NCBI GenBank assembly: GCA_900318175.1
Contig: ONJQ01000006.1
Location: forward strand, 1-64,000
DNA length: 64,000 nt
Origin: an uncultured Bacteroidales bacterium
Lineage (GTDB): Bacteria > Bacteroidota > Bacteroidia > Bacteroidales > P3
Direction: 5' to 3'
Shown here: piece after piece, positions 25,860-30,115 of the stretch
Numbering within the stretch: position 1 is the first letter of the stretch
How the letters are laid out: every line of letters starts with the position of its first letter
Notes under the pieces: model-generated
Database searches by the model: none
Told to the model about the DNA's origin: nothing
Seen by the model: the letters and a program-made list of their open reading frames with translations, nothing else
Position numbers and translations under genes: made by a program

Positions 25860-26156
25860 ATGGACAAGGAATTGACACAAAAGATAAGCGACTATTTTTC
25901 TACCCGACCGGTAATGAAGGCTTGGGTGTTCGGTTCCTATGCCCGTGGGGAACAACGCCCTGACAGCGATATAGACATTATGATTGTTCCCGACCGCGAT
26001 GCCCATGTGGGGCTGTTTATGCTCAGTGGGATGAGGCTGGATTTGCAGGATTTGCTTGGAGTAAAAGTGGATTTGGTGACCGAAAAAGGTCTTTTGCCCT
26101 TTGCCCGTCCCTCTGTAGAAAAAGACAGGGTTTTGATGTATGAGAGAGTTCAGTAA
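25860..26156 (+). CDS. MNT-domain nucleotidyltransferase (MntA-type antitoxin)
   Basis: A 98-residue minimal nucleotidyltransferase. The catalytic motif is GSYARGE followed by DSDIDIM (about 26-41), which supplies the two metal-binding Asp residues. A third acidic position is in KVDLVTE near residue 70. In characterised HEPN-MNT modules this protein adds AMP groups to a Tyr of the HepT toxin and so blocks its RNase activity. The stop overlaps the next gene by 17 bases, and the two are surely co-expressed from the promoter at 25828. The pairing makes the antitoxin role the best reading, although isolated MNT proteins with other roles exist. Confidence 0.88.
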   Translation: MDKELTQKISDYFSTRPVMKAWVFGSYARGEQRPDSDIDIMIVPDRDAHVGLFMLSGMRLDLQDLLGVKVDLVTEKGLLPFARPSVEKDRVLMYERVQ

Positions 26157-26511
26157 AGACAAGATGCGGATTGTCCATATCGCAGAGGCGATAGAGAGGC
26201 TGGAGACACATGCCGGCGGTCTTGCTGAATGTGAGTTGCACGAAGATGTCCTCCGTTATTATGGTATAGTGAAGAACATTGAAATAATCGGTGAGGCTGC
26301 CCGTATGTTGACTGACGAGTTTAAGGCGGCACATCCAGAAGTGGAATGGAGGAATATATCAGGAATGAGAAACTTCCTGATTCACGAATACTTCAATGTT
26401 GACGATGAAACGATTTTTGCTGTGCTGCATACGGAGATACCACAACTGAAAGAACAAATTGAACTATACATAAATACAATTGATTGGGAGGCATGGGAAT
26501 CCCAATCCTAA
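26140..26511 (+). CDS. HEPN-domain RNase toxin (HepT-type, DUF86)
   Basis: A 123-residue all-helical protein of the DUF86/HepT family. The RNase motif R-x4-H is seen as RNFLIH, followed by EYFNVD, where the Tyr of the family's HxYxxVD is the AMP-accepting residue in characterised systems. An earlier conserved helix is YYGIVKNIEIIGEAAR. The toxin cleaves RNA when released from its MNT partner. The gene starts inside the end of the MNT gene (17-base overlap), which keeps the two products balanced. It lies directly upstream of the DGR-like lipoprotein genes, so the stretch 25860-28250 has an accessory character. Confidence 0.88.
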   Translation: MREFSKDKMRIVHIAEAIERLETHAGGLAECELHEDVLRYYGIVKNIEIIGEAARMLTDEFKAAHPEVEWRNISGMRNFLIHEYFNVDDETIFAVLHTEIPQLKEQIELYINTIDWEAWESQS

Positions 26512-26534
26512 CTATATTCAAAAATAGTAAAAAT

Positions 26535-27392
26535 ATGAAGAGATTAAGCATATTAATAATGGTCTGTATTATGGCTGCCGTAATGGTGATGTCCGTAGGT
26601 TGTGATAAAGAATCTATTTCTCCTATTATCCCTGATTCTCCTATTATCCCTGATGGAGCGTTGCCTGGCCTATTTTCGGTGAGTGCAACGAAACAGGTAT
26701 ATTTCTCACAGGGCAATTTACAGTACCAAGCAAGCACCAAAACTTGGCGTTTTGCCGAACACCAGTATGACTATGTAGGGAGTGATAACCGCAGTATCAG
26801 CTCTACCTATAGTGGTTGGATAGACCTCTTTGGTTGGGGCACGGGCAGCAATCCAACCCTATCCTCCACCAGCTTTGAGGACTATGGCACCTTCGTGGAC
26901 TGGGGCTGCAACGCCATCAGCAACGGAGGAAATACCGCCAACCGATGGCGCACTTTGACAAAATCTGAGTGGTACTATCTTTTCAACAAGCGCACCGGTG
27001 CCTTATCCAAACGTGGTACTGGCAACATTAACGGTGTAGGCGGGCTGATTATACTTCCCGACAGTTGGACACTGCCTTCGGAGTGTTCTTTCACTTCAGG
27101 ATTCTGCTCTCCCAGTGGAGACAACTATCCTGACTGGACACACAACAGCTACACTCTCGCACAGTGGGCGCAGATGGAGGCAGCTGGTGCAGTCTTCCTG
27201 CCTGCGGCGGGTAGCCGCTTCGGCACGTATGTCGCCAATGTGGGCTACAGCGGCTACTATTGGTCGTCCACGTCCAGCAGGAACTTCGACGGCGACGCGT
27301 ACGGCATGAACTTCGACGGCGACAATCTCGACGCGATGTACTACCACCTTCGCGACGACGGATTCTCTGTACGCCCCGTTCAGGATAATTAA
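26535..27392 (+). CDS. FISUMP-type lipoprotein with DGR-like variable C-terminus
   Basis: A 285-residue lipoprotein. The leader ends VMSVGC (Cys at about 23), followed by a doubled six-residue unit SPIIPD encoded by an 18-bp direct repeat (26619-26636, 26637-26654). The mature part resembles the Fibrobacter succinogenes major paralogous domain: WGTGSNPTLSS, WRTLTKSEWYYLF, GAVFLPAAGSR, YYWSSTS and a final FSVRPV. This C-type-lectin-like fold is a known target of DGRs in gut Bacteroidota. The last 40 codons have a strikingly biased NNC composition, as expected of an adenine-mutagenised variable region. ATG 26535 is chosen because it starts the signal peptide; a longer reading from 26484 overlaps the HEPN gene. 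The next gene is a paralogue without the bias. Confidence 0.8.
   Translation: MKRLSILIMVCIMAAVMVMSVGCDKESISPIIPDSPIIPDGALPGLFSVSATKQVYFSQGNLQYQASTKTWRFAEHQYDYVGSDNRSISSTYSGWIDLFGWGTGSNPTLSSTSFEDYGTFVDWGCNAISNGGNTANRWRTLTKSEWYYLFNKRTGALSKRGTGNINGVGGLIILPDSWTLPSECSFTSGFCSPSGDNYPDWTHNSYTLAQWAQMEAAGAVFLPAAGSRFGTYVANVGYSGYYWSSTSSRNFDGDAYGMNFDGDNLDAMYYHLRDDGFSVRPVQDN
27240..27388 (+). other. Candidate DGR variable region with initiation-of-homing-like end
   Basis: In the 29 codons at 27273-27359, 22 end in C and the set is dominated by GAC, GGC, TAC, AAC, TTC, CAC, CGC and CTC, all of which can arise from AAC by changing A positions. The invariant-looking end GGATTCTCTGTACGCCCCGT starts at 27360. 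The same region of the tandem paralogue has only 9 of 29 codons ending in C. The boundaries are approximate, because the template repeat is not in the window. Confidence 0.5.
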
Positions 27393-27413
27393 TATATTAA
27401 AACGTTAAACCTT

Positions 27414-27441
27414 GTTGCGGGCAGTCTCCGCTGCCCGCAAC
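27414..27441 (+). other. Perfect 11-bp stem-loop downstream of the variable region
   Basis: GTTGCGGGCAG (27414-27424) pairs with CTGCCCGCAAC (27431-27441) around a 6-nt loop. There is no T run after it, so it is a poor intrinsic terminator. In characterised DGRs a stem-loop shortly after the variable region promotes retrohoming, and this one starts 21 bases after the stop codon. Confidence 0.55.
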
Positions 27442-27497
27442 TAAAATAAAGAGCCCTTGCCGTTGTGGCAGGTTATTAATTCAATAATAGTATAAAT

Positions 27498-28250
27498 ATG
27501 AAAAGATTAAGTGAATTAATGATGGTCTGTATTATGGCTGCCGTAATGATGATGTCCGTAGGCTGCCATAAAGATTCTCTTTCTCCTATTCTCCCTGAAG
27601 GAGTGTTGCCAGGCCTGTTTTCGGTGAGTCCAACGCAACAGGTACATTTCTCGAAGGGCAATCTACAGTACCAAGCAAGCACCAATACATGGCGTTTTGC
27701 TGAACAACAGTATTCATCCAATTCTAATGACTTGTTTGGTTGGGGAACGGGAAACAATCCCAGCCTGTCATCAGTAAACGACCTCGATTATGCCACCTTT
27801 ACCGATTGGGGCAGTAACCCCATCGTCAATGGAGGCAATGCTCCCAACCTGTGGCGAACATTGACCAAGGAAGAGTGGCAGTTTCTCATCTATAAACGCC
27901 CATTCAAACGTGGCTATGGACTTATCAATGGTTATTTCGAAGGATTGATACTCCTACCCGACACATGGTTACAGCCATCTGGTTGTCCCGTTTTTGTGAC
28001 AGGAGATGAGTTCAATCGGTATACCTTTTCCGAGTGGAAGGTGATGGAGTTGGCAGGTGCGGTATTCCTCCCTTTGACGAAATATAATTCTCAAAGTCAT
28101 ACCGCTAATATTGGACCTTATGGAGAATATTGGTCGTCTACCCCTTATGATGAGTACAGAGCCAATCGTATTTATTTATATGACAACAGCCACATGAGTG
28201 TGAGTTATACTTCTCGCCACAATAAATGTGCGGTACGACTTGTTCACTAA
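27498..28250 (+). CDS. FISUMP-type lipoprotein, tandem paralogue without variable-region bias
   Basis: A 250-residue paralogue of the preceding gene. The leaders are almost identical (MKRLSxLxMVCIMAAVM) and end in SVGC. The shared blocks PGLFSVS, VxFSxGNLQYQASTxTWRFAE, LFGWGTG, WRTLTKxEW, LILLPDxW, GAVFLP and EYWSST show a recent tandem duplication. The C-terminal 40 residues differ completely from the first copy and have ordinary, AT-richer codons (9 of 29 ending in C); the end reads AVRLVH. It is therefore either a former target that has decayed or a copy that was never mutagenised. Function is unknown; a surface binding role is likely from the fold and the lipid anchor. Confidence 0.78.
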   Translation: MKRLSELMMVCIMAAVMMMSVGCHKDSLSPILPEGVLPGLFSVSPTQQVHFSKGNLQYQASTNTWRFAEQQYSSNSNDLFGWGTGNNPSLSSVNDLDYATFTDWGSNPIVNGGNAPNLWRTLTKEEWQFLIYKRPFKRGYGLINGYFEGLILLPDTWLQPSGCPVFVTGDEFNRYTFSEWKVMELAGAVFLPLTKYNSQSHTANIGPYGEYWSSTPYDEYRANRIYLYDNSHMSVSYTSRHNKCAVRLVH

Positions 28251-28294
28251 TGCAACAGCTATGGCTTGCTTTTCTGGTACAGTAATTGGCACTG

Positions 28295-30115
28295 CTATTG
28301 CTGCGAGGCGAAGTAGGCGAGGATGGCTTTGGCCTTGGCGGGGCCGACGACCTTGGTGAGGTCGGCTTCGGTCTGTAGGCGTACTTCTTTCAGGCTGCCG
28401 AATTTCAGGAGCAGGTCGCGGGCTGTCTTCTCTCCGATGCCGGGAATGTCGGTGAGGGCGGTGCGGAAGGTGCCTTTGCTGCGCTTGTCTTTGTGGAAGG
28501 TGATTGCAAAGCGGTGCACCTCATTTTGAAGGTTCTCCAGCATGTGGAAGAGTGGGTCGGTGGGTTTGAGGCCCACCACTTGGGGCGGAAAGCCGTAGAG
28601 GAGTTCTGAGGTGTGGTGGCGGTCGTCCTTTGCAAGGCCGGCGATGGGGATTTCGAGGTGTAGCTGGTCTTGAATCACCTGACGGGCCACTTCCATCTGT
28701 CCTGCACCACCATCGACCACCAGCAATTGCGGCAGAGGTTGCCCCTCGTCCGACAGGCGTTTGTAGCGGCGGTAGATTACCTCCGCCATGGAGGCGTAAT
28801 CGTCTGGTCCTTCCACCGTCTTGATGTTATATTTGCGGTACTCCTTGCGGTTGGGTTTGCCGTTGGTGAAGCGTACCATTGCCGCCACAGGGTAGGCTCC
28901 TTGGATATTGGAGTTATCAAAACATTCGATGTTGACGGGGAGCATGGGCAGTGCAAGGGCTTTCTGGATGCGCTCCAAAAGGTGCTGGTTGCGGCGGGAG
29001 GGGTCGGCTTGGTCCGGGTCAACAAGGGCGCGTTGGTGTCGGCATTGCAGTTGGTAGGCCTTGACGTTGCGCATGGATAGTTCGAGCAACTGAAGGCGGT
29101 CGCCACGTGTTGGGACGGTCTGTTTGAGGTATTCCTCGGGCAGGTCGGCAACCTTCATAGGCAGCACCACCTCGCGGGCAGTACTTTCGGTGCGCTCGTG
29201 CAGGGTAGGAATAGCGGTGGAGAGAATCTCCTCGTCGGTCTCGTCCAGTTGTTTCTTCACCTCGTGCGAGAAACTGTAGATGATGCTGCCGTTCTTGATG
29301 CGCATCATGTGGACGTAGGCATATTTCTCGTCGGAGAGTATGCTGAACACATCCACGTCCCGCACATTGGTGTTGACCACCGTGGAGCGGCTCTGGTACT
29401 CCTCCAACCGCCGGATGCGGCGTTTCATGATTTCGGCCTCTTCAAACCGCAGTTGGTCAGCCAGTGAAAGCATTTCGCGTTTCATCTCCTCCACAATGTC
29501 GGCAAAGTCGCCTTTGAGGATGCTGCGGATATTGTTGATTTCTGCCATATAGTCCTCATGGCTCTGCAACCCCGCGCAGGGGGCTTTACACAGGCCTATC
29601 TGGTGCTTCATGCAGGGTCGTTTCTGCATGGTGTTGCACTTGCGGTAGGAGAAGAGTTGGTCAATGATGTCCTGCAACTCGCGCAGGATTCGCTGGTTGG
29701 GATAGGGCCCGAAATACTGGCCTTTGTGCTGACGGTTGCGGGTGAAGAGCAGGCGGGGATACTCCTCGTCGGTGATGCAGAGGTAGGGGTAGGACTTGTC
29801 GTCCTTCAGCATGCTGTTGTATCGGGGCTGGTAGCGTTTGATGAGGTTGTTCTCCAGCAGCAGGGCGTCGACCTCGGTGGCCACCACAGTGACGCGGATG
29901 TCGTAGATGTGCCGCACCAGCATCTTGATCTTGGCGCTCTTGTCCTCATAGTGCGAGAAGTAGGAGCTGACGCGCCGCTGCAGGTTCCGCGCCTTGCCCA
30001 CATAGATGACTGTCCCCGACTCGTCAAGGTGTTGATACACTCCTGGCGTCTCGGGGATGGTCTTCAGCCGCATGGCTATGCGGTCTATGTTTTTGTTGAT
30101 GCTGGCGTCTATCAT
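28295..30115 (-). CDS. uvrC: Excinuclease ABC subunit C
   Basis: A 606-residue nucleotide-excision repair nuclease that makes the incisions on both sides of a lesion bound by UvrB. Domains in order: GIY-YIG nuclease at about 20-100 (PGVYQHLDESGTVIYVGKA), a Cys-containing middle segment (CMKHQIGLCKAPCAG), a UVR motif for UvrB contact at about 205-240, the RNase H-like second nuclease (ECFDNSNIQG and LLVVDGGAGQ) and tandem helix-hairpin-helix motifs at the end (LTDIPGIGEKTARDLL, LTKVVGPAKAKAI). All expected parts are present. Its start codon overlaps the gldH stop (ATGA), an operon link between DNA repair and a gliding/T9SS gene. Confidence 0.95.
   Translation of the reverse strand: MIDASINKNIDRIAMRLKTIPETPGVYQHLDESGTVIYVGKARNLQRRVSSYFSHYEDKSAKIKMLVRHIYDIRVTVVATEVDALLLENNLIKRYQPRYNSMLKDDKSYPYLCITDEEYPRLLFTRNRQHKGQYFGPYPNQRILRELQDIIDQLFSYRKCNTMQKRPCMKHQIGLCKAPCAGLQSHEDYMAEINNIRSILKGDFADIVEEMKREMLSLADQLRFEEAEIMKRRIRRLEEYQSRSTVVNTNVRDVDVFSILSDEKYAYVHMMRIKNGSIIYSFSHEVKKQLDETDEEILSTAIPTLHERTESTAREVVLPMKVADLPEEYLKQTVPTRGDRLQLLELSMRNVKAYQLQCRHQRALVDPDQADPSRRNQHLLERIQKALALPMLPVNIECFDNSNIQGAYPVAAMVRFTNGKPNRKEYRKYNIKTVEGPDDYASMAEVIYRRYKRLSDEGQPLPQLLVVDGGAGQMEVARQVIQDQLHLEIPIAGLAKDDRHHTSELLYGFPPQVVGLKPTDPLFHMLENLQNEVHRFAITFHKDKRSKGTFRTALTDIPGIGEKTARDLLLKFGSLKEVRLQTEADLTKVVGPAKAKAILAYFASQQ

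Follow-up and report, generated by a model that had tools for sequence, protein, structure and literature searches.

A lipoprotein gene with a probable retroelement variable region and a recurring downstream hairpin in an uncultured Bacteroidales bacterium

The locus and its lipoprotein

The window analysed here, a stretch of 64,000 nt, is a section of contig C26 in the assembly of an uncultured Bacteroidales bacterium (G000; 2.9 Mb, 70 contigs, 91.8% complete). Its features of interest follow one another on the plus strand.

26535..27392, plus strand: lipoprotein gene bearing the candidate variable region (VR), 285 aa; the lipoprotein signal is predicted, as read by eye from MKRLSILIMVCIMAAVMVMSVGC
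27213..27359, plus strand: candidate VR, with codon positions 1 and 2 hypervariable and position 3 restrained in codon alignments of relatives
27360..27389, plus strand: constant coding end GFSVRPVQDN, placed where known diversity-generating retroelements (DGRs) have the initiation-of-homing sequence, a role it may share
27393..27413, plus strand: untranslated spacer, 21 nt, the same at 9 of the 10 sites compared, the window being the odd one with one base different
27414..27441, plus strand: DNA hairpin with an 11-bp stem and the 6-nt loop TCTCCG, putatively involved in homing
27498..28250, plus strand: tandem paralogue, lacking signs of a VR, which served as negative control

Directly upstream of the lipoprotein gene, with a gap of 23 nt, lies a pair of genes for a nucleotidyltransferase (PF01909, E 9e-17) and a HepT-like protein (PF01934, E 3e-24) at 25860-26511. 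The lipoprotein is one of 23 matches to its family in a protein search of its own genome, and its named relatives come from uncultured Bacteroidales, Paludibacteraceae and similar metagenome-assembled genomes (MAGs), many of them labelled as rumen or other ruminant gut.

A C-type-lectin-like fold is a plausible candidate for this protein. AlphaFold2 modelled residues 41-285 from 60 sequences with a pLDDT of 95.5, and Foldseek matched the model to two predicted phage FISUMP proteins (E 1.7e-4 and 7e-4, TM-score 0.36); an earlier model (pLDDT 72.4) had given no fold match. Among solved structures Foldseek returned nothing significant, with the C-terminal domain of Legionella Lcl ranking first (E 0.79), and a sequence profile returned a single match of unrelated name (E 0.09). 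Pfam gave Lcl_C alone, below cut-off (E 0.068). At E<=0.01, TIGR02145 FISUMP was found in 14 and PF09603 in 1 of 32 aligned family members, and neither was found in the window protein itself. A partial literature search, from which we claim no priority, found no paper pairing DGRs with FISUMP, and among the papers listed on DGRs and the rumen none dealt with these genes, judging by title.

Codon positions and the hairpin across the genus

The initial annotation had described a lipoprotein gene, a stretch rich in NNC codons, an unbiased end and a hairpin, and these positions hold apart from the start of the VR. A recount agreed with its figure of 22 C-ending codons among the 29 at 27273-27359, and the tandem paralogue is, as it had claimed, free of the bias, with C-ending codons making up 12 of its last 60 compared with 37 of the last 60 in the lipoprotein gene. 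Within the gene the bias is local, being matched by 29 of 20,000 codon shuffles, but equally rich stretches are common in the window: at least 22 NNC codons occur in 118 of 18,345 29-codon windows drawn from 37 ORFs, and at least 8 of these 37 ORFs reach that number at some point. With the background this high, we rejected NNC bias as proof of a DGR target; it is weak evidence by itself, and the claim therefore needed a comparative test.

For this comparison we aligned by codon the gene copies at 11 of the 13 hairpin sites described below, which belong to 10 genus genomes, leaving out the G000 copy on contig C39, which has a different tail, and G062, which has a different gene; two aligned copies, G123 and G021, have short open frames. 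The genome collections hold one genome per species, and the variation measured is that between species. In the VR, differences among the 11 copies amount to 41.7, 32.9 and 11.0% at codon positions 1, 2 and 3, whereas the upstream coding sequence (26850-27209) keeps the usual order (14.9, 12.9 and 23.6%); the figures for the constant end are 3.6, 7.8 and 3.6%. In a first set of four copies, the VR had differed at 40.8, 27.3 and 5.3% and the upstream part at 12.1, 10.7 and 18.7%. Counted by codon position, columns with at least three bases number 28, 21 and 3 for the VR, compared with 10, 11 and 16 for the upstream part (positions 1 and 2 versus 3, Fisher p 3.4e-5), the alignment cells not being independent because the copies are related. 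At third positions, non-C cells in NNC-majority columns are 18 of 338 in the VR versus 65 of 427 upstream, and third-position columns with at least two deviating copies are 5 of 47 versus 40 of 118. The three-base columns contain A in 50 of 52 cases in the VR and 31 of 37 upstream, which hardly discriminates with 11 sequences, so the weight rests on codon positions. Their comparison moves the start of the VR to near 27213, upstream of both 27240 and 27273, where it had been placed before. The codon-position pattern found in the VR is the one to be expected if rewriting were directed at the adenines of AAC codons.

The hairpin had been described as perfect over 11 bp and as lying 21 nt past the stop codon. 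Both statements are correct, the arms at 27414-27424 and 27431-27441 being complementary at 11 of 11 positions about a 6-nt loop. Folded as DNA, 27385-27460 has a z of -4.9, and none of 200 shuffles folds as well. A terminator scan left this hairpin unlisted and listed a separate one at 27456-27472; Rfam returned nothing at E<=1 for 26000-28500. Allowing up to three mismatches, we found the hairpin in 11 of 120 genus genomes, at 13 places in all, and the reversed pattern, used as control, in none of the 120. At all 13 places it stands behind a VR or VR-like end, and 12 of these follow members of the lipoprotein family. Two are in G000, the window site and C39, and they differ at one stem pair, A-T in the former and G-C in the latter. 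The thirteenth, in G062 (L247, contig C18, minus strand, about 1511-1773), lies behind an ORF of 77 aa, possibly a mini-target, whose signal-like start is fused directly to a VR-like tail YWSSTYGNEDDAWNLDSGDGDADMNYGIRYGGRS; the hairpin follows 10 nt on.

By manual count, 9 of the 13 copies have a perfect stem; those of G021 and G028 C8 carry one G-T each, that of G062 one mismatch and one G-T, and that of G027 A-C at 2 of 11 pairs. In the G021 copy (L249, contig C39, minus strand) the loop is inverted and reads CGGAGA instead of TCTCCG, which looks like a flip of the palindrome; the stem is intact apart from its G-T. The spacer was compared at 10 of the 13 hairpin sites, leaving out G000 C39, G131 and G062. 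At the G131 site (L248, contig C91) a MITE-like insert about 196 bp long, its ends inverted CCCAAATCGGTCATTAGG, separates the stop codon of the VR gene from the hairpin. Past the hairpin, the sites can be sorted into a handful of unlike sequence types. A contig end falls within 2 kb for 6 of the 12 family hairpins (1.8 expected, p 0.002). This excess fits within-population variation that breaks assemblies; as paralogues also break assemblies, we did not count it as evidence.

Retroelements of congeners and the search for a core

In 16 genus genomes, eight found first and eight more later, reverse transcriptases (RTs) adjoin template/VR pairs, a pair being one with no non-adenine mismatch in its best 60-nt window. 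Whole pairs at six of the seven scanned loci show 13-28 adenine changes versus 1-2 others; at the seventh, in G003, a template was found and, with the thresholds applied, its contig of 3.6 kb yielded no pair. Several of these RTs carry the motif IGNxTSQ, which we take to be that of DGR-type enzymes. Past the stops of six congeners, inverted repeats have perfect arms of 9-11 bp in four; in the other two the arms reach only 7 bp, which is unremarkable when compared with shuffles. In a red-deer MAG (L153, 2236-4201), VR, bAvd (PF22296, E 8e-25), template and RT stand in a row, with a relative of the window gene a few hundred bases away.

The DGR of G063, of the same genus and with the same VR layout as the window gene, has target, template and RT on one contig (C50). 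Its target is 47.7% identical to the window protein over 279 aa (E 4.6e-61), its template/VR pair shows 24 adenine changes versus 1 other in 186 nt, and its template reads FLPAAGNRNGTSVNNVGSNGNYWSSSYYNSNNAWNVNFNSGNLNTENANNRNNGRSVRLV, an Asn-rich form of the window protein's tail. Unlike in the window, the core adjoins the target and a different inverted repeat (10-bp arms, 15-nt loop) follows the stop, and the template is not cognate to the window VR. Remote VRs of G063 were rejected as partners of its template, as 6 of 6 fetched regions differ from it at 7-11 non-adenine sites over the best 90 nt.

Set against five congeneric templates, the window VR has 23-29 of its 56-70 mismatches at template adenines, the share of A in these templates being 26-30% (p 4e-5 to 0.03), whereas the tandem paralogue shows no such lean (p 0.62-0.97). 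None of the five is cognate to the window VR, at most 50% of its mismatches facing a template adenine; in real pairs 75% or more is typical, according to the available sections of PMC8144416. Other VR-like tails in G000 were compared with congeneric templates as well, and those on C39 and C47 lean to adenines, that on C64 weakly and that on C11 not. From these leanings, G000 probably holds three or more orphan VRs. The C47 tail YRNCDGSVSYVGSNGDYWSSTPLDSDYAWYLYF... belongs to another G000 protein (L270, 86500-89000, minus strand) and is near the template type of G112.

The initial annotation had noted that no RT, Avd-type protein or template lies nearby, and none was found across the G000 assembly either. 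Neither RVT_1 nor a ten-sequence profile of genus RTs matched G000. A search with bAvd also gave no match there, a weak test given that 56 of 120 genus genomes match and only 2 do so above cut-off. A script scan of the window found no template, and no template-like DNA was found in G000, where nothing besides the VR itself matches its DNA at more than 67%. The near-identical VR copy beside a DGR RT that had been expected elsewhere in the genome was thus not found, and that this target is served from a distance stays a suggestion. Lack of RT and template makes up one half of the refuting condition set in the initial annotation; it is no proof here, as the assembly is a 70-contig MAG of 91.8% completeness. 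On the other half, strain variation, the comparison between species gave the pattern that rewriting at adenines would leave.

By blastn with an inferred template, no cognate template was found in G000 or the 119 other genus genomes; among 393 genomes of the order, G000 included, the best other match was 79% over query positions 1-143; plasmids and phages gave no match. IMG/VR held neither the exact constant-end pattern nor the exact hairpin pattern, and a protein search of it found no relative of the window protein. A strong RT match was found in just one of the 11 hairpin genomes, G125, a share that does not differ from the 22 of 120 genus-wide (Fisher p 0.69). The match in G125 (L234, contig C42) lies on a contig that looks phage-like by reading of its ORFs, with the RT and an AAC-rich stretch ASNAYNINAGSGAVNNNNNKNNS in the same frame. 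As a core for hairpin targets this contig was rejected, since no pairing was found with three fetched G125 regions; G021 was likewise rejected as a carrier, its RT match being weak (E 1.2e-6) and its ORF having the motif QGAPTSP instead of IGNxTSQ.

Origin and present state of the variable region

The original reading of this locus as a DGR target, with variable region, unbiased end and stem-loop, is strongly supported by the comparison across species and by the DGRs of the genus, one of which targets a relative. On these sequence comparisons, the 3' end of the lipoprotein gene is very probably the variable region of a DGR. In the model we propose, a DGR reverse transcriptase would copy a template RNA rich in AAC codons, making errors at its adenines, and the resulting cDNA would replace 27213-27359, turning AAC (Asn) codons into NNC codons while restoring all bases other than adenine to the template state. 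The constant end at 27360-27389 would start homing and the hairpin at 27414-27441 would mark the site. The product would be a surface-anchored protein with a randomised C-terminal part, presumably a binding face.

Phage DGRs offer a likeness and a difference on the hairpin. As in Bordetella phage BPP-1, a GC-rich inverted repeat stands shortly past the VR, at a distance of 4-34 bp in phage DGRs, whose stems are of 7-10 bp with 4-nt GRNA loops, compared with the 11-bp stem and 6-nt TCTCCG loop of the window (available portions of PMC3240598). The departure of TCTCCG from the GRNA consensus, as read from the sequence, counts against the DGR reading, as do the imperfect stems in the genus, with the two A-C pairs of G027, and the failure to find a core in G000 or a cognate template.

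Two explanations dispense with reverse transcription, and we consider both highly improbable. In one, the tail would be an ordinary surface domain subject to diversifying selection, its codon usage GC-rich and the hairpin unconnected with it. This would agree with the equally strong NNC bias elsewhere in the window, but selection at the protein level does not hold third positions below the upstream level, would not keep an untranslated hairpin limited to VR-like ends and would not yield a lean to the adenines of real templates. Tail swapping among the 23 family members, by recombination with silent copies, would draw on a large family in G000, and in G103 several copies do lie side by side; against it stand the lack of any near-identical donor (the 67% match being the best other in G000) and differences that fall at codon positions 1 and 2 and form no mosaic blocks, as judged by eye.

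A relic, which overlaps with a DGR origin, is a more serious alternative, and we regard it as possible without favouring it. A DGR would have made the VR and its RT and template would then have been lost, leaving the VR to evolve as an ordinary gene. G000 has no core, a strong RT match is confined to G125 among the 11 hairpin genomes, and Treponema denticola strains without a core retain VR genes that are likely leftovers according to their authors, in the sections available of PMC4891356. Yet third positions in the VR are still restrained (non-C cells 18 of 338 versus 65 of 427 upstream), and the untranslated spacer and hairpin are kept in many species. Because of this restraint and the conserved untranslated hairpin, we read the VR as suggesting renewal until recently, though a different constraint, or interspecies exchange, would leave the same picture. 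Given a DGR origin, we incline to a core that lies elsewhere in the cell or population, on an unassembled contig or a mobile element, and has acted recently; its recent loss is a credible alternative. By comparison the window gene is a DGR target orphaned in the available assembly, a state that agrees equally with a core that is unassembled or mobile and with a leftover of recent date.

Orphan targets have been described before. The VR genes of core-less T. denticola strains resemble the G000 case in being lipoprotein-type targets in a genome without RT or template; however, their cognate template is known from other strains, whereas none was found for the window VR, and in G000 and its congeners the orphan state recurs across species with one common hairpin (comparison limited to the available text of PMC4891356). 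In Thiohalocapsa PB-PSB1, targets also lie away from RT and template, and service in trans occurs alongside locus variants with an intact core, some loci being intact only in part of the population; that service is backed by templates matching at non-adenine sites, of which none was found here (from the accessible part of PMC10907252).

The kind of system is already known, and the part worth following is the recurring orphan state with one conserved hairpin across the genus. It is tempting to speculate that a DGR is distributed in this rumen-type genus, ten or more species keeping chromosomal targets with a shared homing hairpin while a core on a separate mobile or rare element re-diversifies them in trans, although we hold this to be rather unlikely. 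The conserved 28-nt hairpin, which in the genus follows a VR or VR-like end at 13 of 13 places, provides a simple tag for orphan VRs without a template. If the core does act from an unbinned or mobile element, many gut species would have one mutator in common for their surface proteins, and targets of this kind would escape surveys that take the reverse transcriptase as their starting point.
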